DNA of 40,942 bases, taken from Bacteroidetes bacterium GWF2_33_38. Its GTDB lineage: Bacteria; Bacteroidota; Bacteroidia; Bacteroidales; GWF2-33-38. Below are positions 167 through 38,815 of this stretch, piece by piece; position 1 is the first letter of the stretch; the number at the start of each line of letters is the position of its first letter. The notes under the pieces were generated by a model that searched no databases, was not told where the DNA came from, and worked only from the letters and a program-made list of their open reading frames with translations. The translations under genes were made by a program, and so were the position numbers. The stretch lies in NCBI GenBank assembly GCA_001769505.1, contig MEOF01000005.1, forward strand, positions 1 to 40,942, given 5' to 3'.

Positions 167-1645
167 ATGCAGTCAAAAGAGCTTGTTATTTTCAATACTT
201 TATCGAAAAAGAAAGAAGTTTTTAAACCAATAAATTTTCCAAATGTTGGAATGTATGTTTGCGGACCAACTGTTTATGGTTCAGCTCATTTAGGACACGC
301 ACGTCCAGCAATTACATTCGATTTGTTGTTTCGTTTGTTGAAACATTTAGATTATAAAGTTCGTTACGTTCGCAACATTACCGATGTTGGACATTTAGAA
401 AATGATGCTGACGAAGGCGAAGATAAAATTGCAAAAAAAGCTCGTTTAGAACAACTTGAACCAATGGAAATTGTTCAATATTATACCGAAGAATATCACG
501 ATGCAATGCGAATGTTGAATGTTCAAAGTCCTAGTATTGAGCCACGTGCATCGGCTCACATTATGGAACAAATGGATATTGTTGACGAAATCATAAAAAA
601 TGGTTTTGCTTATGAAACCAATGGTTCAGTGTATTTTGATGTTGAAAAATATAACGAAAAATATAAAACTTACGGAAAACTTTCGGGTAGAATTTTAGAC
701 GATTTATTGAGCAATACTCGCAAACTCGACGGTCAAGACGAAAAGAAAAATAGTTTCGATTTTGCATTGTGGAAAAAAGCAAGTCCTGAACATATTATGC
801 GTTGGAAATCGAAATGGAGCGATGGTTTTCCAGGTTGGCATTTAGAATGTACCGCAATGAGCACCAAATATTTAGGCGAAACTTTCGATATTCACGGTGG
901 CGGAATGGATTTATTGTTTCCACATCACGAATGTGAAATTGCACAATCAACCGCAACCATCGGAAAAGAAGCCGTAAAATATTGGGTTCACAACAATATG
1001 ATTACCATTAATGGACAAAAAATGGGAAAATCTCTTGGAAATTTCATTACTTTAACTGAACTTTTCACCGGAACGCACAAAATTTTGGAACGTGCTTATT
1101 CGCCAATGACAATTCGATTTTTCATTCTTCAAGCACAATATCGTAGCACGTTGGATTTTTCAAACGAAGCTTTACAAGCGGCTGATAAAGGTTTACAACG
1201 TTTAATGACAGCAATTTCTACGCTTCCAAAACTTAAAACTTCTGACGCTACTTCTTTCAATTTAGATGAATTAGAAAAGAAATGTTACGATGCAATTTTA
1301 GACGATTTGAATAGTCCAATTCTTATTTCGCAATTATTTGAAGCTGTGAGAATTATTAATTCAATTGAAGCAGGAAAAGATACAATTTCAAAATCGGATT
1401 TAGAACGATTTGAAAAACTAATTTCCACATTTGTTTATGACATTTTAGGATTGCAAAACGAAGCAAGTTCATCGTCTTCAAACGAAGCCTACGCAAAAGC
1501 TATAGATTTGTTACTTACTATACGAATGGAAGCAAAAGCCAACAAAGACTTTGCAACTTCTGACAAAATTCGCAACGAATTAACTCAAATGGGTTTCGAA
1601 ATTAAAGACAAAAAAGACGGTTTCGACTGGACTTTGAAGAGTTGA
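167..1645 (+). CDS. cysS: Cysteinyl-tRNA synthetase
   Basis: This class I aminoacyl-tRNA synthetase charges tRNA-Cys with cysteine in the cytoplasm, an essential step of translation. The Rossmann catalytic domain carries the HIGH signature as HLGH at residues 41-44, next to the zinc-ligand Cys32 in MYVCGPTVY. Further zinc ligands fit the HLECTAMS and HHECEIAQ segments. The KMSKS loop appears as KMGKS at 285-289. The C-terminal third is the helical DALR and anticodon-binding region. The length of 492 residues is normal for bacterial CysRS. The ATG at 167 places the HLGH motif at its usual distance from the N-terminus. It is followed by a non-coding gap of about 330 bases and so is probably transcribed as a single gene. 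Confidence 0.97.
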
Positions 1646-1977
1646 AAGTTTGTAAAGTCCATAAAGTTTATAAAGTTGGGAAAAGAAGGTATTAGGTCTT
1701 GAAAAGTTAAAAACTAAAAGTGAAAAGTTTTAAAGATGGGATAAAGAAATGCATTTACAAAAATTTAAGATTAAAAGATTAGAAGATTTAAAGATTGAAA
1801 TACAATTCTAAATTCTCCCCTTTGGGGAGTTAGAGGGGTTAAATAAATCATTGCGAGAGAAACGAAGCAATCTCAAAAATTGAAATACAAAGTAACTCGG
1901 ACATTCTTGTCCGATAAAAATAATAAAATATTATCAGGTGAAAACAACTGACAAAGGCAACTTAAAAATAAAATAAA
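1646..1977. repeat. Intergenic region with low-complexity sequence and a cluster of three small palindromes
   Basis: This 332-base stretch has no convincing gene. Its first half (about 1646-1800) is AT-rich low-complexity DNA built from variations on AAAGTTTATAAAGTT and AAGATTAAAAGATT. The second half holds three imperfectly spaced inverted repeats: CTCCCC-TTT-GGGGAG at 1815-1829, ATTGC...GCAAT at 1850-1871, and TCGGACA-TTCT-TGTCCGA at 1897-1914. Similar GGGGAG and CGAAGCAAT motifs recur between genes in many Bacteroidota genomes (from memory, not checked here), so these look like dispersed extragenic palindromic repeats. The first hairpin could also act as a weak terminator after cysS, but it has no U-tract. 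Confidence 0.6.
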
Positions 1978-2547
1978 ATGTATTTATTTTTTGACACAGA
2001 GACAACCGGACTACCAAAAAGTTGGAAAGCGCCGGTTACAGATTTAAATAATTGGCCAAGATTAGTTCAATTAGCTTTTTTATTATATGATATAAATGGG
2101 AATAAAATTACGGAAGGAGATTTTATTATTAAACCCGAAGGTTTTACAATTCCGGCAGACGCTTCAAAAATTCATGGAATTTCAACACAAAAAGCGTTAG
2201 AAGAAGGGCATAAACTTTATACTGTTTTGGAGCAATTTCAAGCATTAATTAACGAATCTGAATTTCTTGTAGCACATAATATTAGTTTTGACGAAAAAAT
2301 TGTTGGGGCAGAATTTTTAAGAAATAATATGCCGGATATTGATGCTAAAAAAAGAAAAATTTGCACCATGCAAAGCTCAACTAATTTTTGTGCAATAAAT
2401 GGTCTATATGGTTATAAATGGCCAAAACTATCAGAACTTCATTATAAACTTTTTAAAACCGATTTTGAAGAAGCACATAATGCCTCAGTTGATATTAGTG
2501 TAACGGCTAAATGTTTTTGGGAATTAAAACGACTAGGAAAAATCTAA
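1978..2547 (+). CDS. DEDDh 3'-5' exonuclease (DNA polymerase III epsilon-like)
   Basis: A stand-alone RNase T/DnaQ-fold exonuclease of 189 residues, predicted to remove nucleotides from 3' ends using two metal ions. Exo I is FFDTETTG with Asp6 and Glu8. Exo II is in the AHNISFDEKI segment. Exo III is the HNASVDIS segment near the C-terminus, which gives the His and Asp of the DEDDh type. There is no polymerase, BRCT or UvrC-like fusion. It starts a run of four close plus-strand genes (next gene 4 nt away). Its exact substrate, whether DNA proofreading, repair or RNA trimming, cannot be told from sequence. Confidence 0.9.
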   Translation: MYLFFDTETTGLPKSWKAPVTDLNNWPRLVQLAFLLYDINGNKITEGDFIIKPEGFTIPADASKIHGISTQKALEEGHKLYTVLEQFQALINESEFLVAHNISFDEKIVGAEFLRNNMPDIDAKKRKICTMQSSTNFCAINGLYGYKWPKLSELHYKLFKTDFEEAHNASVDISVTAKCFWELKRLGKI

Positions 2548-2551
2548 AAAA

Positions 2552-3541
2552 ATGAAACAAATACTTTCAATCATCTTTTTCGTAATGCTGTTTGTCGCTT
2601 GCGAAAATGAACCAAAAGTTGAAGACAACACATTGAAAATAACAGAAAAAAATATCGTCGCACCTGATTTTAATGCTGATTCGGCGTATCAATACGTTAA
2701 GTCTCAAGTTGATTTCGGACCAAGAGTTCCTAACAGCGAATCTCACGTAAAATGTGCAAATTATCTTATTTCTGAAATGAAAAAGTATGCTGATTCGGTT
2801 TATGTTCAGCAGTTTACAGCGAATGCGTACAATGGAGATAAATTAAAAGCAAAAAATATAATTGCTGAGTTTAATTCAAATCAAACGAACCGAATTTTAT
2901 TATTTGCTCATTGGGATTCGAGACCGTATGCTGATCATAGCGAAAATCCAGAAGAATGGGAAGTGCCTATTGATGGAGCTAACGATGGAGCAAGTGGAGT
3001 AGGTGTGTTAATGGAAATTGCTAGAAATTTGCATGCGAAAATGCCAACTGTTGGAGTTGATATAATATTTTTTGATGTTGAGGATTATGGACAAGCCGAC
3101 CACAAAAATCTTCCATACCAAGAAGATACATGGTGTTTAGGCTCGCAATATTGGTCAAAGAATAAACACATTCCAGGCTATTATGCAAAATATGGAATTT
3201 TGTTGGATATGGTAGGTGCAAAGAATGCATTTTTTACTAAAGAAGGAACTTCGGTGTATTTTGCCCCTTCTATTGTTGACAGAGTATGGAAAATAGCTGA
3301 AAAATCAGGGTACGGTAATTTTTTCTTAAATCAAAAAACATCACCTGTGACCGACGATCATTATTATGTTAATATACTTGCTCAAATACCGAGTATTGAT
3401 ATTATCCAGCACGACCCAACTACCGAATCGGGTTTCGGAGCATATTGGCATACTCATAACGACAATATGAGTATAATTGATAAAGTTACGCTTCAAGCAG
3501 TTGGACAAACTGTTTTAGAACTTATTTATTCAGAAAAATAA
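2552..3541 (+). CDS. Lipoprotein glutaminyl-peptide cyclotransferase (M28 fold)
   Basis: The predicted role is to convert N-terminal Gln of exported proteins to pyroglutamate in the periplasm. The N-terminus is a lipoprotein signal with lipobox FVAC, Cys17. The M28 metal-site pattern is complete: HWD, then Asp145 in GANDGASG, Glu177-Asp178 in DVEDYG, and His300 in YWHTHND, matching type II glutaminyl cyclases such as the Porphyromonas enzyme. True M28 aminopeptidases bind two zincs. The close DVEDYG and WHT resemblance favours the single-zinc cyclase, although some databases would label it peptidase M28. The length of 329 residues fits. It sits 4 nt after the exonuclease gene. All signal peptidase I-type exported proteins in this window have Gln at the predicted mature N-terminus, which supports the call. 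Confidence 0.85.
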   Translation: MKQILSIIFFVMLFVACENEPKVEDNTLKITEKNIVAPDFNADSAYQYVKSQVDFGPRVPNSESHVKCANYLISEMKKYADSVYVQQFTANAYNGDKLKAKNIIAEFNSNQTNRILLFAHWDSRPYADHSENPEEWEVPIDGANDGASGVGVLMEIARNLHAKMPTVGVDIIFFDVEDYGQADHKNLPYQEDTWCLGSQYWSKNKHIPGYYAKYGILLDMVGAKNAFFTKEGTSVYFAPSIVDRVWKIAEKSGYGNFFLNQKTSPVTDDHYYVNILAQIPSIDIIQHDPTTESGFGAYWHTHNDNMSIIDKVTLQAVGQTVLELIYSEK

Positions 3542-3568
3542 AATTTCGGAATTGTACAAAGCATTTTT

Positions 3569-4513
3569 ATGAGAATAGCAATAATCGATATTGGCACAAA
3601 TACGTTTAACTTACTGATTGCCGACTTGGTTCAACGACAAGGATTTAATACAGTTTATAAGTCAAATCTTCCTGTAAAATTAGGTCAAGGAGGAATAAAT
3701 AATAAAAATATTACAGATGAGGCTTATGCTAGAGGAGTTGATGCTATTAAATTTCATTACGAATCGATTATCGAACACAAGGCTGATGAAATATACGCTT
3801 ATGCAACTTCAGCCATTAGAAGTGCAAATAATGGAATTTCGTTTGTGAATACGATTTTTGAAAAATTCGGGCTCAATATAAATATTATTAGTGGAGATGA
3901 AGAAGCTCAATTAATATACGAAGGAATTAAAATGGCAATCGGAATGTCCGAAAAAAGAGATTTAATCATGGACATTGGAGGTGGAAGTGTCGAATTTATT
4001 ATTGCAAATAAGAACGAAATATTTTGGAAAAAAAGTTATCCACTTGGTATAGCAAGGCTTTTAGATAAGTATAAACCATCAAACCCTATCACTCAAAACG
4101 AAATTTCAGAGATTGAATCGTATCTTGAATCTCATCTTGACGAATTGTTTAGTGAAGCAAAAAAATATAGTATCACAAAACTTCTTGGCTCTTCTGGTTC
4201 GTTCGATACTTTTGCAAGTATGGTCTCGTTTTCGAGGCACAAGGAGGATTATACCAAGCATATTATTTCGTACAAAATTGAAATTGAGGAGTTTTCAAAC
4301 TTACACGGTATTCTAATTCGTTCGACACTTGCCGAAAGAGCAAATATGGAAGGGCTCGAGCCAATGCGAATAGAAATGATTGTTTTATCATCGATATTTG
4401 TCAATTTAGTATTAAATAAATTAAAGGTATCTCAAATTTATCAATCAAGTTACGCCATAAAAGAAGGGGTTCTTTTTAATTTTTTGAAAAGGAAAAGAAT
4501 AGTTACAATTTAA
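3569..4513 (+). CDS. Exopolyphosphatase / guanosine pentaphosphatase (Ppx/GppA family)
   Basis: A member of the ASKHA (actin/sugar kinase/Hsp70) superfamily that hydrolyses terminal phosphates of polyphosphate or pppGpp. The phosphate-1 loop is IIDIGTNTFN, with Asp7 near the N-terminus, and the phosphate-2 loop is MDIGGGSVEF around residues 133-142. At 314 residues it is the short two-domain form, lacking the C-terminal HD-like domain of longer Ppx proteins. This form cannot be assigned to Ppx or GppA by length alone. It lies 27 nt after the cyclase gene and 11 nt before the response regulator, and is probably co-transcribed with both. Confidence 0.9.
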   Translation: MRIAIIDIGTNTFNLLIADLVQRQGFNTVYKSNLPVKLGQGGINNKNITDEAYARGVDAIKFHYESIIEHKADEIYAYATSAIRSANNGISFVNTIFEKFGLNINIISGDEEAQLIYEGIKMAIGMSEKRDLIMDIGGGSVEFIIANKNEIFWKKSYPLGIARLLDKYKPSNPITQNEISEIESYLESHLDELFSEAKKYSITKLLGSSGSFDTFASMVSFSRHKEDYTKHIISYKIEIEEFSNLHGILIRSTLAERANMEGLEPMRIEMIVLSSIFVNLVLNKLKVSQIYQSSYAIKEGVLFNFLKRKRIVTI

Positions 4514-11047: not shown

Positions 11048-11893
11048 ATGACAAACATCTTAAAAGCAATAAAAAACATTGTTGAAAATCCTATTATTCA
11101 AGTTCGGGATTTTTATTCGGGACGAAATAGAGCAAATTCTGTTGGCGAAGCATTAGAAAATTATGTAAAAGATGTTTTTGCAAATAGTTTTAATGAACAA
11201 GAAGCTGAAAGAAATTTAAAATTTAATGAAGCTTTTAGTTATTTAGGAAATCAAAATAATCCACCGGATATTATTTTGAGAAATGGAGATGCAATCGAAA
11301 CAAAAAAAGTTCAAAGTTTAACAAGTGCTTTGGCTTTAAATAGTTCATATCCAAAATCTAAACTATATGTAGAAAGTCCAATGCTAACGCAAGCTTGTAA
11401 AAAATGTGAAACTTGGTCTGAAAAGGATATTATTTATGTTGTTGGTTGTACAAACGACAGTGATATAAAATATTTATGGTTTGTTTATGGCGATTGTTTT
11501 GTTGCCGACAAAGAAATTTATGAACGAATTAAAAATACCATTTCAATAGGAATAAATAGTATCCCAAATGTTGAATTTACCGAAACAAACGAACTTGGAA
11601 AAGTTAAAAGAGTTGATCCATTAGGAATAACAGACCTTCGTGTGCGAGGAATGTGGCACATTGAAAATCCGCATAAAATATTTTCATATTTGAATGTTGC
11701 CGATAATTCTGCAAAATTTCAAGTTATTTGTTTAATGAAAACCGAAAAGTTCAATTCTTTTTCAGATGAAGACAAAAATTCACTTTTAAATTTGAAAGTC
11801 GATAATTACAAAATCGCTGACACAAAAATTAAAAATCCAAATAATCCAGCTCAATTAATTGACGCCAAATTAATAACTTTCAAAGTGTTGTAA
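11048..11893 (+). CDS. Type II restriction endonuclease, NgoPII family (predicted GGCC)
   Basis: A 281-residue restriction enzyme. The sequence follows the NgoPII family as I remember it throughout, including the N-terminal SGRNRAN block, the FSYLGNQNNPPD block, ALALNSSYPKSKL, KDIIYVVG and the late LRVRGMWHIENPH block. The PD-(D/E)xK active site fits Asp74 in NPPDIILRNGD and Glu84-x-Lys86 in AIETKK. NgoPII cuts GGCC, so that target is inferred. The ATG at 11048 matches the family N-terminus. The methyltransferase starts 2 nt after its stop codon, so the pair forms one transcript in the order restriction gene then methylase. Base composition is like the neighbouring genes. Confidence 0.92.
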   Translation: MTNILKAIKNIVENPIIQVRDFYSGRNRANSVGEALENYVKDVFANSFNEQEAERNLKFNEAFSYLGNQNNPPDIILRNGDAIETKKVQSLTSALALNSSYPKSKLYVESPMLTQACKKCETWSEKDIIYVVGCTNDSDIKYLWFVYGDCFVADKEIYERIKNTISIGINSIPNVEFTETNELGKVKRVDPLGITDLRVRGMWHIENPHKIFSYLNVADNSAKFQVICLMKTEKFNSFSDEDKNSLLNLKVDNYKIADTKIKNPNNPAQLIDAKLITFKVL

Positions 11894-11895
11894 TT

Positions 11896-12957
11896 ATGAA
11901 AATTGTATCATTTTTTGCAGGAGCTGGAGGTTTAGATTTGGGCTTTACTCAAGCTGGTTTTAATTGTGTTTGGGCAAATGAATATGACAAAGAAATTTGG
12001 GAAACTTATGAAAAAAATCACCCAAAAACAATTTTAGACAAGCGAAGTTTAACAGATATTAAATCAGAAGAAGTTCCCGATTGTGATGGAATTATTGGCG
12101 GTCCACCTTGCCAAAGTTGGAGCGAAGCTGGTGCTTTGCGAGGAATAAAAGATAAAAGAGGACAATTATTTTTTGAATTTATTCGAATTTTAGAAGAGAA
12201 AAAACCGAAATTTTTTCTTGCCGAAAATGTTTCAGGAATGTTGTTGCCAGTTCATAAACAAGCTTTAGAAAACATTAAAGAAATGTTTAAAGATTGTGGT
12301 TATACATTGTCATTTCAATTACTTAATGCTTCCGATTTTGGTGTTCCTCAAGATAGAAAAAGAGTTTTTTTTATTGGTTATCGCAACGATTTAGGAATAG
12401 AATTTCAATTTCCAAAAGGAACAACAATTGAAAATAAAATCACATTAAAACAAGCAATTTTTGATTTAAAAGATACGGTTTTACCTGCAAAAGAAGGAAA
12501 TTTTACCCATGGAAATTTATGTAAAATACCAAATCACGAATATATGATTGGTGGATTTTCGTCAATGTATATGTCAAGAAACCGCGTGAGAACTTGGGAA
12601 GAAGTTTCGTTTACAATTCAAGCAGGAGGAAGACACGCACCAATTCATCCACAAGCTCCATTAATGAAATTTGTTGAACAAGATAAACGTGTTTTTGTTC
12701 CAGGAAAAGAAGATTTATACAGACGATTAAGTGTGCGAGAATGTGCAAGAATTCAAACTTTCCCTGATAATTTTATTTTTCATTACAAAAGTGTTGTTGC
12801 AGGGTATAAAATGATTGGAAATGCTGTTCCCGTAAGATTAGCAAAAGCAATTGCTCAAATTATAAAACAGGATTTAGAAAAAATCGAAAATAAATCAACT
12901 GAAAAATATTATAAAATCAGTTCTGAAACATTGCATCAAACAGTAGCAGAAATATAG
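11896..12957 (+). CDS. DNA (cytosine-5) methyltransferase, partner of the NgoPII-type enzyme
   Basis: This enzyme methylates cytosine in the site cut by the adjacent endonuclease, and so protects the host. Motif I is FFAGAGGLDLGF (AdoMet binding). Motif IV is GPPCQSWSEAGALRG with catalytic Cys72, motif VI is AENVSGM, and motif VIII is QDRKRVFFIGYR. The target-recognition region contains SMYMSRNRVRTWEEVSFTIQ, and motifs IX-X are RRLSVRECARIQTFP and MIGNAVPVRLA. The length of 353 residues is usual. The motif IV surroundings and the SRNRV...W segment resemble M.NgoPII/M.HaeIII-type GGCC methylases, so GGCC is predicted. All ten-motif landmarks are intact, which suggests an active enzyme. Confidence 0.94.
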   Translation: MKIVSFFAGAGGLDLGFTQAGFNCVWANEYDKEIWETYEKNHPKTILDKRSLTDIKSEEVPDCDGIIGGPPCQSWSEAGALRGIKDKRGQLFFEFIRILEEKKPKFFLAENVSGMLLPVHKQALENIKEMFKDCGYTLSFQLLNASDFGVPQDRKRVFFIGYRNDLGIEFQFPKGTTIENKITLKQAIFDLKDTVLPAKEGNFTHGNLCKIPNHEYMIGGFSSMYMSRNRVRTWEEVSFTIQAGGRHAPIHPQAPLMKFVEQDKRVFVPGKEDLYRRLSVRECARIQTFPDNFIFHYKSVVAGYKMIGNAVPVRLAKAIAQIIKQDLEKIENKSTEKYYKISSETLHQTVAEI

Positions 12958-13177: not shown

Positions 13178-14095
13178 TTAAAACCTTTTCTTATAAATAT
13201 GACAATAGGGTTCGTCGCCTTTTTTGGTGTAATATTCCTGATGATATTCTTCGGCAGTCCAAAATATTTGTGCGGGAGTTAATTTAGTAACCACATCGTA
13301 TCCTTTTGCTTTTAAATTATTTATGAGTTTTTCAGCGGTTTGTTTCTGACTTTCGTTGGTGTAAAAAATCTCGCTACGATATTGTTCTCCAATATCAGGC
13401 CCTTGTCGATTTATTTGAGTTGGATCGTGAATTTCGAAAAATAATTTAGCAAGTTCTTCATAACTGATAATGCTTGGGTTAAACGTAATTTCGATGGCTT
13501 CGGCATGACCAGTATTTGTGTGGCAAACATCTTGGTAGCTTGGTTTTTCTTTTTTTCCTCCGGTATATCCTACATCGGTTTTGATGACTCCTTTGAGATT
13601 TTGAAAATGGTATTCGATTCCCCAAAAGCATCCTCCGGCAAAAATTGCTTTTTCAAGTTTTAACGAATCTGCCGAAACAAAATTCAACGAAATTGAATTA
13701 ACGCAATGCCGCATATTTTTGGGAGTGAAATTTTCACCTTCAAAAACGTGCCCTAAGTGTCCTCCACAAGTTGCACAAACAATTTCGACTCTTCTCCCAT
13801 CTTTGTCGGGAACTCGTTTTACGGCTCCTTCAATTTCATCATCGAAGCTTGGCCAACCACAATGCGAATCAAACTTATCGTTCGATTTATACAATTGTGC
13901 ATTGCATTGCTTGCATGTATAAATTCCATCTTCTTTATAATCAGTAAATTTACCGATAAATGGTTTTTCTGTGCCTTTGTTAATTATCACATTAATTTCT
14001 TCGGCATTAAGATTATTATAATTTTTGGCTTCCATATTTTCTTGTGAATTACAGTGTAAATTTAAAAATCCAAATATAAATATTAAATATTTCAT
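13178..14095 (-). CDS. msrBA: Exported peptide-methionine sulfoxide reductase, MsrB-MsrA fusion
   Basis: A bifunctional repair enzyme that reduces both epimers of methionine sulfoxide in proteins. The first residues form a short lipoprotein-like signal ending LNLHC (Cys15), so it is probably anchored in the envelope. The MsrB half (about 25-140) has two zinc CxxC pairs, CKQCNAQLY and CATCGGHLGH, and the catalytic Cys in RHCVNSISL. The MsrA half (about 148-305) has the catalytic GGCFWG motif, the GYTGG and EQYRSEIFY segments, and ends DEPYCHIYKKRF. The order B-A is the reverse of many fusions but occurs in Bacteroidota. It is a single-gene unit, divergent from the OmpA-family gene. Confidence 0.93.
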   Translation of the reverse strand: MKYLIFIFGFLNLHCNSQENMEAKNYNNLNAEEINVIINKGTEKPFIGKFTDYKEDGIYTCKQCNAQLYKSNDKFDSHCGWPSFDDEIEGAVKRVPDKDGRRVEIVCATCGGHLGHVFEGENFTPKNMRHCVNSISLNFVSADSLKLEKAIFAGGCFWGIEYHFQNLKGVIKTDVGYTGGKKEKPSYQDVCHTNTGHAEAIEITFNPSIISYEELAKLFFEIHDPTQINRQGPDIGEQYRSEIFYTNESQKQTAEKLINNLKAKGYDVVTKLTPAQIFWTAEEYHQEYYTKKGDEPYCHIYKKRF

Positions 14096-14271
14096 TATTA
14101 TATTAATTTAGACAAAATAAAAATAAAGATAGTAAATCAATTATTTATTATCAATTATTTTTGACAAAACGAATCGAATTTATTTTTTGTAGGTTTAAAA
14201 TATCAATAAAAATGAATGTTTCTGTAATTTTTATTATTTTTGGATTCATTATTCAAAACAAAGGAATTTAT

Positions 14272-15822
14272 ATGAAAAGTTTATTTCTGTTTTCACTCAT
14301 TTTGCTTGCTTTAAATTCGCTATTATTTTCGCAGACCGATAGTCTTAAAACAACTGTAATTATTGAGAATTTAGGCCCTAAAGTAAATTCTGAATACGAT
14401 GAGCTAAACCCAATTATTTCACCCGATGGAAAAATGTTGTACTTTGTTCGTCAAAATCATCCGAAAAATACATTTGGAGTAGAAGGCAGTCAAGACATTT
14501 GGGTTTCTACCTTAGGAAAAGACAGTGCTTGGATGGAGGCTGTTAAAATGGGGAAGCCTTTTAATATCGAACAGTACAACGGAATCATAAATGTTACACC
14601 CGATGGAAATACGGTTCTTATTCGCGGAGCATACAAAGAAGGTGTTTACAAAGGCTTAGGTTATTCTTTTGCTCACAAAGGAAAGAAAAAGTGGAAAAAT
14701 CCTGAAATGCTCAACATCAAAAAATTAAAATCGATGGATTTGGGGGCTAATAATTCTGCTTTTTTGTCGAACGATGGACAAACATTACTATTGAGTTTCA
14801 GCGAAGAACATTTTGGAGAACAAAACGATTTGTATGTTAGTTTTATGCAAAAAGATAAGTCTTGGTCGAAGCCCAAAAACATTGGAACTGTTGTAAACAC
14901 TGAGAAAAATGAAGCGGCACCCTTTTTAGCTGCCGATGGAGTAACTTTATATTTTGGTAGCGATAGAGAAGGTGGCAGAGGAGGACTTGATATTTACATG
15001 ACTCGCCGTTTGGACGATACTTGGGAAAAATGGTCGGAGCCTGTAAATTTAGGCGAAGGAATTAATACTTCGGCAAACGAGGCTTATTATTCGTTAGATG
15101 CAGCCGGTAAATTTGCATATATGGTATTATACAAGGAAGCGGTTGGCGAAAGCGATATTGTAAAAATTAAATTAAAAGAAGAAATTCAGCCCGATCCTGT
15201 TGTAATGGTTTACGGAAATGTTTATAATAAAAAAACAAACGAACCGCTTGAAGCTGACTTAACTTATGAAGTATTGTCTGATACAAGTGGAATAGGTGGC
15301 GTTGCCAGAACAAACCCTGACGATGGAGGATATAAAATAATCCTTCCAAGAGGAAAGGTTTATGGATTTACAGCTACTGCTCAAGGATTTATGTCGGCAT
15401 CAGAAAATGTTGATGCCACTCAAATTACCGAATATACTGAAATCAAAAAGGATTTATATTTGGTTCCTTTTGAAGTTGGGCAAACCGTTCGATTGCAAAA
15501 TATTTTCTTCGACCATAATAAAGCAACGCTTCGTCCCGAGTCATTTCCTGAACTCGATAGGGTAAAGGTATTATTAACCGAAAATCCTAAAATGACGATT
15601 GAAGTTGCTGGACATACTGATAATGTTGGATCTGACGATTACAACCTTCGCTTGTCTGATGAGAGAGCAAATGCGGTACGTGATTATTTATTGCAAACAG
15701 GAATCGAATCAAATCGGATTAATGCCAAAGGTTACGGAGAAACTAAACACATTGCCGAAAACGAAACAGAAGAAGGAAAACAACTTAATCGTAGAGTCGA
15801 ATTTACGATATTAACAAAGTAG
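14272..15822 (+). CDS. Outer-membrane PD40/OmpA-domain protein (PorE-like)
   Basis: A 516-residue exported protein. The start is taken at the ATG at 14272, after AAAGGAATTTAT, because it puts the signal peptide MKSLFLFSLILLALNSLLFS at the N-terminus. The frame is open upstream to a TTG at 14161, but that would bury the signal. Mature Gln follows. Residues about 30-310 are PD40-type propeller repeats (SPDGKMLYFV, LAADGVTLYFGSDREGG). About 315-400 is a carboxypeptidase-regulatory-like fold. The last 100 residues are an OmpA C-terminal peptidoglycan-binding domain (GHTDNVGSDDYNLRLSDERA, with the Asp and Arg that contact diaminopimelate). P. gingivalis PorE of the T9SS has similar parts plus a TPR, absent here, so PorE identity is only suggested. 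Confidence 0.88.
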   Translation: MKSLFLFSLILLALNSLLFSQTDSLKTTVIIENLGPKVNSEYDELNPIISPDGKMLYFVRQNHPKNTFGVEGSQDIWVSTLGKDSAWMEAVKMGKPFNIEQYNGIINVTPDGNTVLIRGAYKEGVYKGLGYSFAHKGKKKWKNPEMLNIKKLKSMDLGANNSAFLSNDGQTLLLSFSEEHFGEQNDLYVSFMQKDKSWSKPKNIGTVVNTEKNEAAPFLAADGVTLYFGSDREGGRGGLDIYMTRRLDDTWEKWSEPVNLGEGINTSANEAYYSLDAAGKFAYMVLYKEAVGESDIVKIKLKEEIQPDPVVMVYGNVYNKKTNEPLEADLTYEVLSDTSGIGGVARTNPDDGGYKIILPRGKVYGFTATAQGFMSASENVDATQITEYTEIKKDLYLVPFEVGQTVRLQNIFFDHNKATLRPESFPELDRVKVLLTENPKMTIEVAGHTDNVGSDDYNLRLSDERANAVRDYLLQTGIESNRINAKGYGETKHIAENETEEGKQLNRRVEFTILTK

Positions 15823-17193: not shown

Positions 17194-18717
17194 TTAGAAT
17201 CCTACAGGACTACCAACTCTAACCATTGCACAACGGAATCCTAAATCGTCTTGTCTTTGTTTTTCATCAAGGTAACGTCTTGTACCAGGAACTAACCAAT
17301 AAGCTCTGTCGCTCCATGAACCACCTTTATATACGCGAGCATTATCATTAACCATTGATGTCATTCCTGCTCCACCTCTCATGCCATCAGTTGTCTTACC
17401 TTGATCATACATTCCGGTTGATGTGTGTTTTGCGGCTTTATCCGATTGGCTATAATTAACACTTGATTGAAAATCACCATCTAGATAGTTGATATTGTCA
17501 GATTGATTGTAGTTTCTTCTATCAAAAGCTTCGTCAGTATGCTCGTTTCCAAGTAAGTCTTTTTTCCCAACTTCTCTCCATCTGATATGACCTAAACTAT
17601 CTTTTTCGTATATATTTCCATCTTCATCTTTCTCTGGAGTCACAAAAACATTACCTCTAAACGGTCTAAATTCTTCAGCATCTTGGAACGTTAATGGTCT
17701 ATAAACGTCCATAACCCACTCGCTAACATTTCCAGCCATGCAATACAATCCGTAATCGTTTGGCCAATATGAATCTACAGGACCTGGTATATCTGCGTTA
17801 TCATTCAATGCACCTGCCGTTCCCATCATATCACCTCGACCTCTCATAAAGTTAGCCATAATAGTTCCTCGATGTTGTTCGCCATCATTACGAACATAAT
17901 GTCCATTCCAAGGATACAATTTTCGAGTGAATACTCGTTCTTCGATTGAATTTCCAATCAACGAAAGGGCTGCAAATTCCCATTCAGCTTCCGTTGGGAG
18001 TCGGTATCTTGGTAATAAAATTCCGTCTTCCATACGAACTTTTCTATAATCTCTGTTTGGATCATAATCAGGAATACCAGGACTCTTCATTAAACCTTCA
18101 TATTGTCCTGCTAAGTAAGCATCTGTATTAAAGTTATCCTCTCCAACTTGATTTGGATTTTTCAACAATAAACCTTCTCTAATTAAAATCCATTCGTTTA
18201 CCCTATCAGTACGCCATGCACAATAGTCATTTGCTTGATACCAATTTACTCCAACAACTGGATACTCTTGATAAGAAGGATGGCGTAAATATAATTCAAC
18301 CATTGGTTCGTTCCAAGCAAGTTTTCGTCTCCAAACTAATGTATCAGGAAGGGCTTTTTTATAAACCTCAGGATAGTCAATGTAAACCCTAGTTAACCAA
18401 TACAAATATTCTCGGTAGTCAACATTTCTAACTTCGCATTCATCCATATAAAAGGAAGAAACGGTAGTACGGCGAGGAACATTATTCCAATCGTACATTA
18501 CATCTTGTTCAACCCGACCCATCGAAAATGTACCTCCTTCGATAAGAACTAGACCAGGTCCAGTTTCTTGCTCGTAATATTCAACATATTCAAAACCGCC
18601 ACTTTCGGGGTCATTATAATCCCAACCTGTAGTGGAAGATCTTTTTGTTTCGCAAGAATTTAAAAAGACAATCACTAAGATTAGCACTGATACTGTTAAA
18701 ATACTTTTTGTTTTCAT
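17194..18717 (-). CDS. gldJ: T9SS / gliding-type lipoprotein GldJ (formylglycine-generating-enzyme fold)
   Basis: An outer-membrane lipoprotein of the type IX secretion apparatus. In Flavobacterium johnsoniae GldJ is needed for gliding and stabilises other Gld proteins. The lipobox is FLNSC with Cys22. TGWDYNDPESGGFEY and LIEGGTFSMGRVEQDVMYDW open an FGE-sulfatase (SUMF1) domain that continues with PVVGVNWYQANDYCAWRT, RLPTEAEWEFAA, MAGNVSEWV and KGGSWSDRAYWL. The TGWDYND-GGF start and the MGRVEQDVM block follow GldJ and not GldK/PorK. Catalytic copper-binding cysteines of true FGE are not evident, so the fold is structural. It lies 42 nt after the PorP/SprF-like gene, and gldJ, murF, porU and porV cluster as in F. 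johnsoniae. Confidence 0.88.
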   Translation of the reverse strand: MKTKSILTVSVLILVIVFLNSCETKRSSTTGWDYNDPESGGFEYVEYYEQETGPGLVLIEGGTFSMGRVEQDVMYDWNNVPRRTTVSSFYMDECEVRNVDYREYLYWLTRVYIDYPEVYKKALPDTLVWRRKLAWNEPMVELYLRHPSYQEYPVVGVNWYQANDYCAWRTDRVNEWILIREGLLLKNPNQVGEDNFNTDAYLAGQYEGLMKSPGIPDYDPNRDYRKVRMEDGILLPRYRLPTEAEWEFAALSLIGNSIEERVFTRKLYPWNGHYVRNDGEQHRGTIMANFMRGRGDMMGTAGALNDNADIPGPVDSYWPNDYGLYCMAGNVSEWVMDVYRPLTFQDAEEFRPFRGNVFVTPEKDEDGNIYEKDSLGHIRWREVGKKDLLGNEHTDEAFDRRNYNQSDNINYLDGDFQSSVNYSQSDKAAKHTSTGMYDQGKTTDGMRGGAGMTSMVNDNARVYKGGSWSDRAYWLVPGTRRYLDEKQRQDDLGFRCAMVRVGSPVGF

Positions 18718-18720
18718 AAT

Positions 18721-18760
18721 ATAATGTTTAGTTTAACATTATGTTCAACATATATTGAAC
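18721..18760 (-). promoter_or_regulatory. Two back-to-back hairpins in the porP-gldJ spacer
   Basis: ATAATGTT (18721-18728) pairs with AACATTAT (18735-18742), and GTTCAA (18743-18748) pairs with TTGAAC (18755-18760). Together they fill nearly all of the 42-base gap between the PorP/SprF-like gene and gldJ. They may mark an mRNA processing or stability site that sets the ratio of the two products. No U-tract is present. Confidence 0.4.
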
Positions 18761-19746
18761 TAAAATGATGGGCAACTTATTGTTCTAAACTTCTTTTTCT
18801 TTTGTTTACAATTTAATTGAAACGAAACAGAAACTTCGTGTGCCCCTAATGTTTGATTTTTAAGTTTAGATATTGTTAAATCGTAACTATATGCAAATTT
18901 CATTTTCGATTGTATATATCCAATCATCATAATATATGAATCGAAATGTGCTTTAAAGTTTTGTCTAAGCCACATTCCAAAAACAATAGAGGTTCGGCTA
19001 AGATAGAGTCCGTAATTAATTTGTTGCATGTCCTCTTGTTGTTGAAACAAGAAATTTGGAGAAATTGAAAGTTCTCCCCTTTTAAAATTTCGATTACTAA
19101 TTGGTATGGTTGTACCAAAATGCACAGTATATTTTCTTGGTAAATAAGCATCGCTTGCTTCTCTGAACGACTCAGAAGGTTGTGTTAAGTGTGCAACTGA
19201 TATTCCAAAGAAATAATCTTTGCTAAAACCAACAAATCCTGCTGTTACGTCGAATAAACTTTTTTTGAAATCAGTGGATACATAATCTTCTTGAGTAGGG
19301 AATACGGGACCGTATAATGGATGTATTTGGTCTGGAAACGTAAATTCATCTCCGAGTTTTTTCTGTAAATAAGTTGCTTGAAAACCTCCTTTTATGGCAA
19401 AAGTTCTTGATATATTTAATGTATATGAGTAAATTCCACTTACATTTATTGTATTTATAGCTCCATTACCTTGTATGTCATTATAAACCATTAACCCAAC
19501 TCCTCCTTGAAGAAAATCAAAATGTTGGTCATACGAAAAACTTGGAGTAACGTAAACAGAACCCAGTTTTGGAAACTGATTCCTATAGCTAAGAGCCAAT
19601 CGAGGGCATTTAACAGATCCTGCAAAAGCAGGGTTAAGGTACAATAGGTTAGCATAAAATTGTGAGAACTCAGGATCTTGAGCCATCACCTTACTACTCG
19701 CTCCTAATGAGATAATCAAGAAAAATACAACTAGCCTCTTAATCAT
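18760..19746 (-). CDS. PorP/SprF-family outer-membrane protein
   Basis: A 328-residue predicted beta-barrel of the PorP/SprF family, linked to T9SS. The signal peptide ends KVMA, followed by mature QDPEFSQFYANLLYLNPAFAGS, the family hallmark. Alternating aromatic strands follow (YRNQFPKL, SYDQHFDFLQGGVGLMVYND, FGTTIPI). In P. gingivalis PorP belongs to the PorPKLMN core. In F. johnsoniae SprF is needed to secrete SprB. Here the gene precedes gldJ and not a porK-L-M-N set, so it may be an alternative PorP-like protein, and I leave the symbol empty. The C-terminus is Lys- and Cys-rich (NCKQKKKKFRTISCPSF), unusual for a barrel end. It diverges from porU. Confidence 0.85.
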   Translation of the reverse strand: MIKRLVVFFLIISLGASSKVMAQDPEFSQFYANLLYLNPAFAGSVKCPRLALSYRNQFPKLGSVYVTPSFSYDQHFDFLQGGVGLMVYNDIQGNGAINTINVSGIYSYTLNISRTFAIKGGFQATYLQKKLGDEFTFPDQIHPLYGPVFPTQEDYVSTDFKKSLFDVTAGFVGFSKDYFFGISVAHLTQPSESFREASDAYLPRKYTVHFGTTIPISNRNFKRGELSISPNFLFQQQEDMQQINYGLYLSRTSIVFGMWLRQNFKAHFDSYIMMIGYIQSKMKFAYSYDLTISKLKNQTLGAHEVSVSFQLNCKQKKKKFRTISCPSF

Positions 19747-19939
19747 TCTGAACCAATAAATTTAATTACAATATTAGTATATTTTTTTTAATTATTGTAC
19801 AAATAAGCTAATATTTCGGCTACAATAATAATATAAAAATATCGTTTAAAAAAGTATCGGATTAAAAAAATCACTTTAGAAAGCGTATTATTTTTAAAAA
19901 AGGATTTAATTTTAGGCAATATTTTAATTAAAAAGACAG
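19747..19939. promoter_or_regulatory. Divergent intergenic region between the porP-like gene and porU
   Basis: These 193 AT-rich bases must hold promoters for both T9SS transcripts. On the plus strand TAATTTTA (in GGATTTAATTTTAGG, around 19903-19917) differs from the TAnnTTTG consensus only at the last base. On the minus strand TAATATTG is one mismatch away. No -33 TTTG is well placed, so the exact start sites are uncertain. Confidence 0.35.
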
Positions 19940-22900
19940 ATGAATTTTAGACTTTTGGTATTGTTTTTTTTCATGAGCGTTTCGGCTTTTCCTCAAATAA
20001 TAAATCAGGTGAAAATAAATTGGGACGAAAATCCTCGTCGGCTTGATGAAATAGAGTATTTATACTTTTATGGTGGAGTATATAATAATGATGACCTTAT
20101 TATTCCTTCATTTAATATAAATATTCCTACGAAAAAAGGAATGGCTTCAGAGTTTAAAATTCAAAATCCCATTTTCGAAACCGTAAACAATGGCTTTGTA
20201 AATTATGAAAGCTATAAAAATATGGTCAATTCAACAATTGAAATTAAATATTCCGAATTATTTCACCGAAACGAAAAACTTGTTAATGTCAATTTTTATC
20301 CTTTTCGGATAAATGCATCTACAGGGAAATTAGAAAAACTAGTTTCATTTAATTATACTGTTAATGAAGTAGAAAAACCAGAGGTAGACAATAAATCGCT
20401 AAAAACATATGCTGCAAATTCGGTTTTATCATCTGGGAAATGGGTGAAAATTAAAATTGAGAACGATGGGATTTATAAATTAACATATTCAGATTTAGTT
20501 GATATGGGATTTCAAAATCCTCAAAATATTCGTGTTTTTGGAAATGGGGGCGAAATGCTTCCCGAAAACTCAAGTAAATATAGACATGATGATTTAGTTG
20601 AAAATTCCATATATATGGATAAAGGAATCGATAATGTTTTTAATACAAACGATTATATTCTGTTTTATGGAGTCGATGTAAATGGATGGAATTACGATGA
20701 TGACGAAAATCGATTCGAACATTCTAAGAATATTTATTCAACTAATTCTTATTATTTTTTGACAACAGACGTTGGAGTTGGTAAGAAAATATCTTTGGCT
20801 GATTTAATTTCTGATGAAGTTAATCATACAACTAGAACGTTTGACCATTATGATTATTACGAAGACGACTCCGATAATTTATTGCTTTCGGGGCAATTGT
20901 GGGTTGGAGAGCATTTTGATGCCGTAACAACTTATGATTTCGATTTTAATATCCCTAATATTGATGTCAGCTCTAAGGTGAATTTGACCTATTATTTGTT
21001 GGCTCGTTCATCTGTGTCTAGCTATTTTAATATCACGGCAAACGATTTGCCCATAAAAACTGTTACCGTTGGTTTGGTTAATATGAGCAGTTATACGGCA
21101 ACATATGCCTCGTATCAATATAATAATGTTTTGTTTGATGCAACTTCATCAGATATTAATATTAGCATTGACTATACAAAAACGACATCCTTATCGGAGG
21201 GATGGCTTAATTACTTAGAAATAAATTCTCGGAGGTTTCTGAATATGAACGGAGGGCAGATGAAATTTCGTGATATCAAAACAGTCGGGAAGGATAATGT
21301 GACAGAATTTGTTTTGTCTGCAGCTAATTCAAATATAATCATTTGGGATATTACAGAACCATTGAATCCTTTGATTGTTGATGGAAGTATAGATGGCGAC
21401 AGTCTTCGTTTTATTGCTAGAACAGATTCCTTAAAAGAATTTATTGCTTTTCAAAAAGACGGAAATTTTTTAACTCCTACGGTTGTTGGGAATATTACAA
21501 ATCAAAACTTGCATGGACTTCAGCAAGCAGATATGTACATTATAACACACCCATTATTTATAAACTCGGCATTAGAACTTGAAGCATTACACGAGCAAAA
21601 TGATAATTTAACAGTTGAAACAGTTACAACTGAGCAGGTGTATAATGAGTTTTCTTCAGGACAAAATGATGTTTGTGCTATTCGTGATTTTATGAAAATG
21701 TTTTTTGATCGTTCGACAGGAGAAGAAGATATGCCTAAATATTTAATGTTATTTGGCGACGGCTCATATGATAATTTTACAAATTCAAGTTCTAATACCA
21801 ACTTTATAACAACATATCAATCGAGTAATTCGCTTACCCCTACAAGTTCATTCGTAACCGACGATTTTTACGGATTACTTAATGAAGGAGAATCTGTAAC
21901 AACAGGGGCTCTTGATATTGGAGTTGGGCGGTTACCGGTTAAAAATTCTACAGAAGCAAATTCTGTTGTTAATAAAATAAAGAATTACATACAGACAAAA
22001 ACGTACGATGATTGGCGGAATATCATAACTTTTGTTGCCGACGATGAAGATTCTGCTGAACATATGGATAATGCTGATGCACTTACGGTGAAAATAGATT
22101 CGCTTTATCCTGTTTATAATATTGAAAAAATATATTTAGATGCATATCAGCAAGTTACCACTCCGTCGGGGGAAAGATATCCCGATGTAAATACAGCTAT
22201 AAATAACAGAATGAAAAAAGGAGCTTTAATCGTTAATTATATCGGACACGGAAACGAACTAGGACTTGCTCACGAACATATTCTAGGAATAAACGACATA
22301 AATAATTGGTCTAACTTTAATCAACTTCCAATTTTTATGACAGCAACTTGTGAATTTAGTCGATTCGATGATTTTGAAAGAACTTCAGCAGGAGAGCAAA
22401 TTCTTCTAAATCCAAATGGAGGCGGAATAGCTTTATTAACAACGACTCGATTGGTGTATTCTTCGCCAAACTTTGCACTAAACGATAAGTTTTACAATTA
22501 TGTAGTTGCAAAAGACGAAAACAATGAGCCTTATCGCTTGGGCGATATTATGCGATTAACTAAAATAAATTCAGGGGCTGGAACTAATAAATTAAATTTT
22601 ACATTGCTGGGAGACCCTGCTCTTCAGCCTGCAATTCCTACTTACGGAACAAATACGCTTTCGATAAATGGAACCATCGATAGTTTGGATACCGATACGA
22701 TAAATGCGTTATCGAAGGTAACCATTACAGGTGAAGTGGTTGATGACGATGGAGTATTAATGGCAGATTATAACGGAGAGTTGAACATTTCGGTTTACGA
22801 TAAAGAATCAACGATTACAACTTTGGCTAACGACGGAGCGGGAGCAATAACGTATAAGTCGTTAAATAATATTATTTACAAAGGCAACGCAACTATTATT

Positions 22901-23719
22901 AATGGATTGTTTACATTTTCGTTTATTGTTCCTAAAGATATTGCTTACAATTATGGCTTTGGAAAAGTAAGCTATTATTATAAAAACGAAACTGTTGATG
23001 GACATGGATATTTCGACGAGATTCTTATTGGAGGTTCGTCCGATTCAATAGATATCGATGAAAACCCTCCGGTTATTGAACTTTACATGAACGATGAAAG
23101 TTTCGTTTTCGGGGGGCTCACTAATCAAAGCCCGATTATGTATGCAAAAGTGTTTGATGATAATGGAATTAATACTGTTGGAAGCGGAATAGGACATGAT
23201 ATTACTGCCGTTATTGATGATAATACTTCTCAAATAATTGTTCTTAACGATTATTACGAATCGGAAATAGATAGTTACCAGTCTGGAAACGTAAAATATC
23301 CTTTTGCCGATTTATCGAACGGAATGCATAATATTCGTTTTAAGGCTTGGGATACGCACAATAATTCGTCGGAGGCATATTTAGAATTTATTGTTGCCGA
23401 ATCAAGCGAAATGATTTTAGAACATTTGTTTAATTATCCAAATCCATTTACGACAAGCACTTCGTTTTTCTTTGACCATAACTCGTCTGAAACGGAATTA
23501 GATGTAATTATTCAAATATTTAGCATTTCAGGAAAATTAGTTAAAACTATCGAAGAACAAATTTTTTCGAGTGGCTATCGGGTAGGTCCAATTACATGGA
23601 ATGGACTCGACGATTATGGCGGTAGGCTTGGGCGTGGTGTTTATTTTTACAAAGTAAACGTAAGAACATCTACTGGACAACTTGTTGAAAAAATCGAAAA
23701 ACTTGTGATTCTTAAATAA
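19940..23719 (+). CDS. porU: T9SS sorting-signal peptidase (C25 family)
   Basis: PorU is the surface protease/sortase that removes the C-terminal sorting domain of T9SS cargo and links it to anionic lipopolysaccharide. It is 1259 residues long with signal peptide MNFRLLVLFFFMSVSAFP and mature Gln. Residues about 525-895 form the gingipain-like C25 domain. The catalytic His770 is in NYIGHGNELG and the nucleophile Cys804 is in MTATCEFSRFDD. LLGDPALQPAIP ends the domain. An Ig-like region follows (DENPPVIELYMNDESF), and the last 90 residues (from NYPNPFTTSTSF to VEKIEKLVILK) resemble a T9SS sorting domain that PorU keeps. PorV, its partner, is encoded 49 nt downstream. Confidence 0.95.
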   Translation: MNFRLLVLFFFMSVSAFPQIINQVKINWDENPRRLDEIEYLYFYGGVYNNDDLIIPSFNINIPTKKGMASEFKIQNPIFETVNNGFVNYESYKNMVNSTIEIKYSELFHRNEKLVNVNFYPFRINASTGKLEKLVSFNYTVNEVEKPEVDNKSLKTYAANSVLSSGKWVKIKIENDGIYKLTYSDLVDMGFQNPQNIRVFGNGGEMLPENSSKYRHDDLVENSIYMDKGIDNVFNTNDYILFYGVDVNGWNYDDDENRFEHSKNIYSTNSYYFLTTDVGVGKKISLADLISDEVNHTTRTFDHYDYYEDDSDNLLLSGQLWVGEHFDAVTTYDFDFNIPNIDVSSKVNLTYYLLARSSVSSYFNITANDLPIKTVTVGLVNMSSYTATYASYQYNNVLFDATSSDINISIDYTKTTSLSEGWLNYLEINSRRFLNMNGGQMKFRDIKTVGKDNVTEFVLSAANSNIIIWDITEPLNPLIVDGSIDGDSLRFIARTDSLKEFIAFQKDGNFLTPTVVGNITNQNLHGLQQADMYIITHPLFINSALELEALHEQNDNLTVETVTTEQVYNEFSSGQNDVCAIRDFMKMFFDRSTGEEDMPKYLMLFGDGSYDNFTNSSSNTNFITTYQSSNSLTPTSSFVTDDFYGLLNEGESVTTGALDIGVGRLPVKNSTEANSVVNKIKNYIQTKTYDDWRNIITFVADDEDSAEHMDNADALTVKIDSLYPVYNIEKIYLDAYQQVTTPSGERYPDVNTAINNRMKKGALIVNYIGHGNELGLAHEHILGINDINNWSNFNQLPIFMTATCEFSRFDDFERTSAGEQILLNPNGGGIALLTTTRLVYSSPNFALNDKFYNYVVAKDENNEPYRLGDIMRLTKINSGAGTNKLNFTLLGDPALQPAIPTYGTNTLSINGTIDSLDTDTINALSKVTITGEVVDDDGVLMADYNGELNISVYDKESTITTLANDGAGAITYKSLNNIIYKGNATIINGLFTFSFIVPKDIAYNYGFGKVSYYYKNETVDGHGYFDEILIGGSSDSIDIDENPPVIELYMNDESFVFGGLTNQSPIMYAKVFDDNGINTVGSGIGHDITAVIDDNTSQIIVLNDYYESEIDSYQSGNVKYPFADLSNGMHNIRFKAWDTHNNSSEAYLEFIVAESSEMILEHLFNYPNPFTTSTSFFFDHNSSETELDVIIQIFSISGKLVKTIEEQIFSSGYRVGPITWNGLDDYGGRLGRGVYFYKVNVRTSTGQLVEKIEKLVILK

Positions 23720-23739
23720 TAAAATAGATAATAATTAGT

Positions 23740-23747
23740 TATATTTG
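23740..23747 (+). promoter_or_regulatory. Candidate -7 promoter element for porV
   Basis: TATATTTG matches the TAnnTTTG consensus and ends 21 nt before the porV ATG, in the 49-base gap after porU. A clear -33 TTTG is not seen, so porV may be transcribed both from here and by read-through from porU. Confidence 0.4.
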
Positions 23748-23768
23748 TTGTACGAAAATGTTTAAAAA

Positions 23769-25016
23769 ATGCAAAAAATACTAATTATCAGTTTGTTATT
23801 GCTACTTTGGGTGAGTTCGTTTTCTCAAACAGTTAACGGCTCCAATAATACTTTGCTCGGTCAAGATTTAGATGGCGAAAGCGTAAACGCAATTACAACG
23901 GCTGTTCCATTTTTATCAATTGCTCCCGATTCAAGAGCTGGTGCTATGGGTGATGCAGGAGTTGCAACCACTCCTGATGTAAATTCTCAACATTGGAATC
24001 CTGCAAAATATGCTTTTATGGAAAATGATATGGGCTTTTCTGTTTCATACACTCCATGGCTAAAGGGATTGGTTAATGATATCAATTTGGGGTATGTTTG
24101 CGGCTATTATCGTTTTGCTGATGATCAAACTGTAAGTGGCTCTTTGCTATATTTTTCGTTGGGAGATATTACTTTTACCGATAACGAAGGAAATACAATC
24201 GGACAAGGCGACCCAAAAGAATTTGCAATTGACGGAGCCTATTCTCGAATGTTTTCAGATCATGTTTCGGGTAGTGTTGCTTTGCGATATATTCATTCGG
24301 ACTTAACAAGTGGATACGAGTTCAATAATGTGGATTCAAAGCCAGGACAATCTGTTGCTGCTGATGTTTCGGCATATTACGAAAATGATGTTGTAATTTC
24401 TGAAAAAGAAGCAAAACTTATGTTTGGAATGAATATTTCGAATATTGGTGCAAAAATTTCATATACGGCGAATGCTGATAAAGATTTTATACCAACTAAC
24501 TTAAGGTTGGGTGGAGGTCTTAAAGTGAATATTGACGAATATAACACTATGCTTTTTACGGCAGATGTTAATAAATTATTAGTTCCAACGACTCCGGTTT
24601 ATTATCCTGATTCAGTTGACCTTGATGGAAATTTGATCCCTATGTTCGGAAAAGATCCAAATGTATCGGTTCCTCTTGGAATGATTCAATCTTTTTATGA
24701 TGCTCCTGGTATTTATAACGATAAAACGGGCAATGTTAGTGTTATGAAAGAAGAATTACGCGAATTAATGTACTCATTTGGAATGGAATACTGGTACGCT
24801 AAACAATTTGCAATTAGAGGTGGGTACTTTCACGAGCATGCAACCAAAGGAAATCGAAAGTTCTTTACTGTAGGTTTTGGATTAAAGTTAAACGTATTTT
24901 CACTTGATTTTGCGTATCTTATTCCTACTCGCCAAAAACATCCTCTCGAAAATACCTTGCGATTTACCATTACTTTTGACCTCGAAAATTTTGAATCTCA
25001 GGCTGTCGTAGAATAA
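23769..25016 (+). CDS. porV: T9SS outer-membrane shuttle protein PorV
   Basis: PorV (LptO) is a 14-strand FadL-like barrel that collects cargo from the SprA translocon and delivers it to PorU. The signal peptide ends VSSFS with mature Gln. The family block PFLSIAPDSRAGAMGDAGVATTPDVNS and the HWNPAKYAFME segment are present near the N-terminus. So are TPWLKGLVNDINLGYV and LNVFSLDFAYLIPTRQKHPLENTLRFT at the C-terminus, as in PorV of other Bacteroidota. The length of 415 residues is typical. ispF follows after 3 nt, which suggests a porV-ispF-CoA-binding-thioredoxin transcript. Confidence 0.96.
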   Translation: MQKILIISLLLLLWVSSFSQTVNGSNNTLLGQDLDGESVNAITTAVPFLSIAPDSRAGAMGDAGVATTPDVNSQHWNPAKYAFMENDMGFSVSYTPWLKGLVNDINLGYVCGYYRFADDQTVSGSLLYFSLGDITFTDNEGNTIGQGDPKEFAIDGAYSRMFSDHVSGSVALRYIHSDLTSGYEFNNVDSKPGQSVAADVSAYYENDVVISEKEAKLMFGMNISNIGAKISYTANADKDFIPTNLRLGGGLKVNIDEYNTMLFTADVNKLLVPTTPVYYPDSVDLDGNLIPMFGKDPNVSVPLGMIQSFYDAPGIYNDKTGNVSVMKEELRELMYSFGMEYWYAKQFAIRGGYFHEHATKGNRKFFTVGFGLKLNVFSLDFAYLIPTRQKHPLENTLRFTITFDLENFESQAVVE

Positions 25017-29073: not shown

Positions 29074-29260
29074 TGCAATAAATAATAACGTCAAAAATTA
29101 ATTCGACAAAGTAGTAATTTTTAAGCAAAAATTAAAAAAATATACATAATTGTTAAAGAATTGTTAATCATTTTATTGTTTGCGTATTATGTTGAAATAA
29201 ATAGTTAATTTTAGAAATGTTTTTGATATGAATTCATAAAATTGAAAAATAACATACATT

Positions 29261-38757: not shown

Positions 38758-38815
38758 TTTGAATACTTTTAAAAAATATCATATCAAAAGTAAAGGAAAA
38801 CAAAAAATAAACATC

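Follow-up and report, generated by a model that had tools for sequence, protein, structure and literature searches.

The bias toward Gln at +1 of exported proteins and the glutaminyl cyclase (QC) found together in the window, the whole 40,942-nucleotide stretch of DNA analyzed, are real, ordinary, and already known and explained: the window very probably carries the Bacteroidetes Q-rule pathway in one further genome. In this pathway, signal peptidase I (SPI) would cleave exported preproteins directly before Gln, the periplasm-facing lipoprotein QC encoded at positions 2552 to 3541 would cyclize the exposed Gln to pyroglutamate, and the pyroglutamate would shield the N terminus from aminopeptidases. 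We infer the placement of the QC at the inner membrane, the cyclization and the stabilization from what has been published for P. gingivalis and other species. For the window itself, the outcome is a published rule confirmed and its cyclase named in one more genome, and little beyond.

Since the cleavage sites given in an earlier note on this DNA were possibly picked for their Gln, a signal-peptide predictor was written that does not see the +1 residue. It considers only the charged n-region, the hydrophobic core and the residues at −3 and −1, and is blind from +1 onward; any lipoprotein, and any protein with additional membrane segments, is set aside. The predictor is home-made, its −3/−1 weights included, and it admits some cytoplasmic or membrane proteins, so that the Gln fraction is lowered. 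Applied to window ORFs of at least 85 amino acids (31 ORFs), it returned 12 SPI candidates, two lipoproteins (QC and GldJ) and one membrane protein, and Gln stood at +1 in 11 of the 12 candidates. With Gln making up about 0.03 of mature-protein residues (3.0%, own-genome sample), the binomial chance of at least 11 of 12 is 2e-16, a rough value because proteins of one genome are non-independent events. The features concerned are as follows, with a slash marking the predicted cleavage site.

2552 to 3541, + strand: animal-type (type II, M28) glutaminyl cyclase (QC), predicted lipoprotein
13178 to 14095, − strand: MsrB/MsrA protein (MsrBA), NLHCNS/QENMEA; the twelfth candidate, missing from the earlier list
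14161 to 15822, + strand: OmpA/PD40 protein, NSLLFS/QTDSLK; likely start ATG at 14272
17194 to 18717, − strand: GldJ lipoprotein (TIGR03524, 6e-144), lipobox LNSC; not an SPI substrate and outside the count
18760 to 19746, − strand: PorP/SprF family protein, SSKVMA/QDPEFS
19940 to 23719, + strand: PorU sortase, blind call SVSA/FPQ, Gln at +3
23769 to 25016, + strand: PorV, WVSSFS/QTVNGS
26178 to 26642, − strand: TPR protein, TKIFFA/QTKKDT
26653 to 29094, − strand: CAP-domain protein, HQKTFS/QQQSEF
31323 to 32507, + strand: Ycf48-like protein with a type IX secretion (T9SS) tail, CNLIFG/QSWQNI
33186 to 34775, + strand: S41 peptidase, AQCAVS/QEFNNS
35734 to 38757, + strand: SprB-repeat protein with T9SS tail, FQLSMA/QLSIEV
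38759 to 40618, + strand: SprB-repeat protein with T9SS tail, TQITQA/QLSVEI; likely start ATG at 38816
40624 to 40890, + strand: small protein, GTIVYS/QNYKCF

GldJ, the PorP/SprF protein, PorU and PorV (17194 to 25016) form a type IX secretion/gliding cluster. Toward the other end of the window, the two SprB-repeat proteins with T9SS tails (35734 to 40618) are adjacent and have very similar signal peptides.

The same predictor was applied to 20 contig-start stretches of other contigs of the own genome (346,889 of 3,933,251 bases, 8.8%; ORFs of at least 100 amino acids). The 236 ORFs gave 63 SPI calls, 45 of which (71%) have Gln at +1, and 49 of the 63 have Gln within the first four mature residues. 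The excess was confined to +1, with 45 Gln there versus 0 to 7 at each of the remaining 21 positions between −6 and +16. In a control of 4 × 50 kb (200 kb) of E. coli K-12, Gln occupied +1 in 2 of 21 SPI calls (Fisher p of 1e-6 for 45/63 versus 2/21). The genome-wide frequency that the earlier note proposed to check is thus, in an 8.8% sample, not near background, and the likeness it saw to the reported Bacteroidetes bias is borne out by a sampled value equal to the published mean (PMC5837995).

That publication reports predicted Q-values above 48% in 332 of 334 Bacteroidetes species, with a mean of 71%, and notes pyroglutamate in data already published for five species; it reports no generic sorting role (PMC5837995). 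It also describes two QC lineages in Bacteroidetes, most members of which are predicted lipoproteins (PMC5837995). Work on P. gingivalis reports that it is the activity of the QC that makes the enzyme essential, and that Gln-to-Asn variants of selected substrates occur at lower abundance (PMC10653852). The earlier note suggested that the window QC may be central to envelope biogenesis, and an essential QC in P. gingivalis is consistent with this. A different reading of the bias holds that Gln at +1 is set by the preference of signal peptidase or by spontaneous cyclization, the QC merely adding to it. N-terminal Gln can indeed cyclize without an enzyme (PMC5837995), and a bias exists in three QC-less genomes described below; we nonetheless regard this reading as improbable, as it sits poorly with the essential activity of the P. 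gingivalis QC (PMC10653852) and with the presence of a QC in all 76 sampled genomes of the class.

To survey QC occurrence across the phylum, 296 genomes were drawn and QCs were counted by full-length matches only. Among the matches listed, all 76 of 76 same-class genomes, own genome included, have a QC (animal-type in 24, plant-type in 58, both in 6), a tally that assumes that same-class genomes precede the others in the match list, as appears to be so. Outside the class, and again among the matches listed, many genomes have no full-length match to either QC type. Genomes outside the class with an animal-type QC had Gln at +1 in 8/15 (G183), 12/14 (G223) and 5/16 (G042) SPI calls, and one with a plant-type QC (G058) in 2/7. 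QC presence and +1 Gln bias are not tightly coupled outside the class.

Eight QC-less genomes were sampled. First stretches gave Gln at +1 in 6/10 (G003), 6/14 (G123), 7/14 (G131) and 2/7 (G005), and further genomes in 1/5 (G146), 1/5 (G009), 0/7 (G010) and 4/12 (G001), so that G010, G146, G009 and G005 are low, on small samples, G001 lies between, and G003, G123 and G131 are high. QC absence was accordingly dropped as a predictor of low bias, since it fails for these last three, which are single-contig genomes from other classes of the same phylum. Second-round stretches were taken from the three high single-contig genomes only, which are therefore a selected set; G005, a single-contig genome with low bias, was sampled in the first round only. 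The new stretches alone gave 9/15 (G003), 10/19 (G123) and 13/18 (G131), and the two rounds combined gave 15/25 (G003; L142-L146 and L278-L284), 16/33 (G123; L152-L156 and L285-L291) and 20/32 (G131; L157-L161 and L292-L297), which adds up to 51 Gln-at-+1 cases among 90 predicted SPI proteins; in every one of the three genomes the Gln count peaks at +1.

A 30-row QC profile scored 460 bits with the window QC, 402 with that of G183 and 382 with that of G223; its best scores were 38 bits for G003, 45 bits for G123 and 63 bits for G131, where it recognized no QC. No score over 15 QC-less genomes exceeded 74 bits; the frames hit were 389 to 1140 amino acids long, plus one of 229. The plant-type family PF05096, searched at a cutoff of E 10 in the three genomes, gave one chance-level match (E 0.66, G123). 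With neither a QC-level profile match nor a PF05096 match, the +1 Gln bias of G003, G123 and G131 stands without a recognized QC. M28 paralogues were considered as hidden QCs of these genomes and rejected: of the 11 weak hits, 10 were read, seven of which have Glu-Glu for the Glu-Asp of QCs and three of which (L259, L266 and L274) gave no match to the Glu-Asp-site pattern, and the His-Trp-Asp of QCs occurs in none of the 10. By these motifs, the M28 paralogues of the QC-less genomes look peptidase-like, with a divergent cyclase among them possible. Seven proteins of QC-less genomes (L251, L306, L307, L308, L310, L311 and L252; families f17 and f35; frames of 1116 to 1140 amino acids) combine an HELLH motif with an M28-like region and are possibly fusions of two peptidase domains. 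No replacement cyclase beside the cysteinyl-tRNA synthetase gene (cysS) was recognized by eye in six loci of QC-less genomes of about 4.4 kb each.

A bias found elsewhere in the phylum without either recognized QC means that the bias alone is no proof of a known QC at work. We lean slightly toward a Q-rule that is independent of the two known QC lineages, the QC-less genomes having a third cyclase, a self-cyclizing Gln, or a Gln kept for a reason that predates the enzyme. If the QC-less organisms grow warm, their N-terminal Gln may close spontaneously; a cyclase of a new kind is another possible answer. Published counts may already bear on the matter. Of 1540 species in the data set, 574 Bacteroidetes species are listed with an animal-type QC, 507 with a plant-type QC and 63 with both, so that this work seemingly also left species with no recognized QC; Ignavibacterium album has a Q-value of 77%, and QC-less species with high Q-values may be recorded in Figure 4, which sorts species by QC type (PMC5837995). 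A literature search on Ignavibacter and glutaminyl cyclase returned that paper only, one joining Rhodothermus, pyroglutamate and signal peptides returned none, and one on spontaneous cyclization in thermophiles found nothing to the point. In the published model, the Gln bias serves the cyclase, which is essential in P. gingivalis (PMC10653852). Biased members lacking a recognized QC, if true, would make bias-first versus enzyme-first testable and could conceal a new family of cyclases; they are a lead worth following, more so than the window.

The QC ORF at 2552 to 3541 (+ strand) is intact and encodes 329 amino acids, with the lipobox LFVAC and its Cys at residue 17. Peptidase_M28 (PF04389, 1.1e-33) is its sole Pfam domain. 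Its best match among solved structures, over residues 19 to 329 and thus full-length, is 6qro (E 2.1e-117), an entry named glutamine cyclotransferase, which we take to be the T. forsythia QC of the structural study; 3tc8, 4fuu and 3gux follow. Human-type glutaminyl-peptide cyclotransferases match it weakly (e.g., 2afm, 8.7e-4). An alignment of 110 sequences was assembled from the window protein and 109 relatives (80 titled genome-record loci and 29 phylum-sample loci). Residues D145, E177, D178, D219 and H300 of the window QC are identical in 110/110 sequences, as are W121, D268 and D269; the Cys17 column is Cys in 109/110, and a lipobox-like motif lies within the first 45 residues of 103/109 relatives.

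The zinc ligands of the P. gingivalis QC (PgQC) are Asp149, Asp183 and His299, of which Asp183 is described as peculiar to bacteroidal QCs (PMC7948796). By motif these correspond to D145, D178 and H300 of the window protein, and the catalytic Glu and Asp named in the same source map to E177 and D219 (PMC7948796). D178 is thus an Asp in place of human Glu202, as in bacteroidal type II QCs. PgTrp193, described as a conserved residue of bacteroidal QCs (PMC7948796), matches by motif W194 of the window protein, with a possible indel offset; only 68 of the 110 sequences have Trp in this column, 38 having Tyr and 4 having Phe. The earlier naming of the gene as a glutaminyl cyclase lipoprotein was correct.

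That the gene instead encodes an M28 aminopeptidase, the Gln bias then having another cause, is very unlikely. The two kinds of enzyme share a superfamily, Pfam alone gives Peptidase M28, and leucine aminopeptidase is the deposited name of some PDB relatives. Nevertheless, the best full-length matches include glutamine cyclotransferase entries (6qro, the 4fuu group and 6qql), and the motifs AHWDSRP and VEDYG occur in the protein as they do in the G183 and G223 QCs. Moreover, 3tc8, 4fuu and 3gux are treated as bacteroidal QCs in the structural study, which reports one zinc and QC hallmarks for 3tc8, 4fuu, PgQC and the T. forsythia QC (PMC7948796).

Searching the own genome (rated 99.12% complete) with the QC protein returned itself and one 85-residue match (E 3.9e-4), and no second full-length animal-type QC was found there. 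A plant-type (type I) QC was dropped as second cyclase of this genome, as PF05096 has no match in it. The M28 family has six matches in the genome, five of them over the Pfam cutoff; the QC is among those five, leaving five other M28 matches (four over the cutoff), so that on sequence alone a different enzyme is possible. Homology, the conserved active site, the lipobox and its standing as the only QC recognized in the genome support the QC at 2552 to 3541 as the candidate enzyme responsible.

The earlier note had counted Gln straight after a small residue at +1 in 11 of 11 exported proteins. The strong bias stands, at 11 of 12 by the blind predictor; the count itself omitted MsrBA and placed the PorU site differently from the blind call. 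The MsrBA call is less sure because its score is low (1.7) and a Cys lies at residue 15. For PorU, the site first given, SAFP/Q, has Pro rather than a small residue at −1, and the blind call places Gln at +3. PorU matches occur in 58 genomes, the own genome included, and orthologues were examined at 24 loci; the blind predictor put Gln at +1 in 15 of these and a different residue there in 7, and it found no site in the remaining 2, which makes a cut before Gln plausible for the window PorU. The PorU site does look chosen for its Gln, yet that the bias as a whole arose from such choices is hardly credible, being refuted by the blind counts of 11/12 in the window, 45/63 elsewhere in the genome and 2/21 in E. 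coli.

The QC lies within a run of same-strand genes, its neighbors being these:

167 to 1645, + strand: cysteinyl-tRNA synthetase (cysS), identified by Pfam, upstream neighbor of QC
1978 to 2547, + strand: RNase T-type exonuclease ORF (PF00929, 2.3e-16), ending 4 bases before the QC start
3569 to 4513, + strand: Ppx/GppA phosphatase (ppx; PF02541, 5e-50), downstream neighbor of QC

In 56 of 80 QC relatives, cysS is upstream of QC on the same strand, with a gap below 300 bases in 55 of those 56 loci and of about 3 kb in L048; the set is uneven, as 19 loci are Pontibacter, all with cysS, and some loci have little upstream sequence. Neither the window exonuclease nor ppx had a match at 1e-10 in these 80 loci. 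Among the matches listed for the 29 phylum-sample loci (flanks of about 1.5 kb), 8 loci have cysS next to QC, and these 8 belong to the same class as the own genome; 11 of 29 have a Ppx/GppA relative 3′ of QC, and all 11 come from family f24 of another class, which contributes 12 loci. With cysS, exonuclease, QC and ppx in a row (167 to 4513), the window combines the cysS-QC and QC-ppx arrangements. An old inherited gene order is sufficient to account for the cysS-QC neighborhood, and a search for literature joining cysteinyl-tRNA synthetase, glutaminyl cyclase and Bacteroidetes found none. Elsewhere in the window (11048 to 12957), an NgoPII-type restriction endonuclease (PF09521, 6e-120) adjoins a C5 cytosine methyltransferase.

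Among known systems, the M28 aminopeptidases belong to the same superfamily as the window QC and have a two-zinc site, unlike QC (PMC7948796). Plant-type QCs (type I, PF05096) catalyze the same reaction as the animal type and have no match in the own genome. The window QC shares full-length homology, catalytic residues, the Asp in place of human Glu202, and the lipobox with the bacteroidal type II enzymes from P. gingivalis (PG2157) and T. forsythia (PMC7948796). The P. gingivalis QC gene is the first of a three-gene operon that also contains PG_2158 and PG_2159 (PMC10653852), whereas in the window the order is cysS-exonuclease-QC-ppx. Compared with the Bacteroidetes Q-rule as described in PMC5837995 and PMC10653852, the own genome is alike in its majority of Gln at +1 (45/63; published mean 71%), in its single recognized lipoprotein QC, and in having T9SS parts and cargo as substrates. 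Relative to what these sources describe, there is no essential difference, and the genome alone is new.
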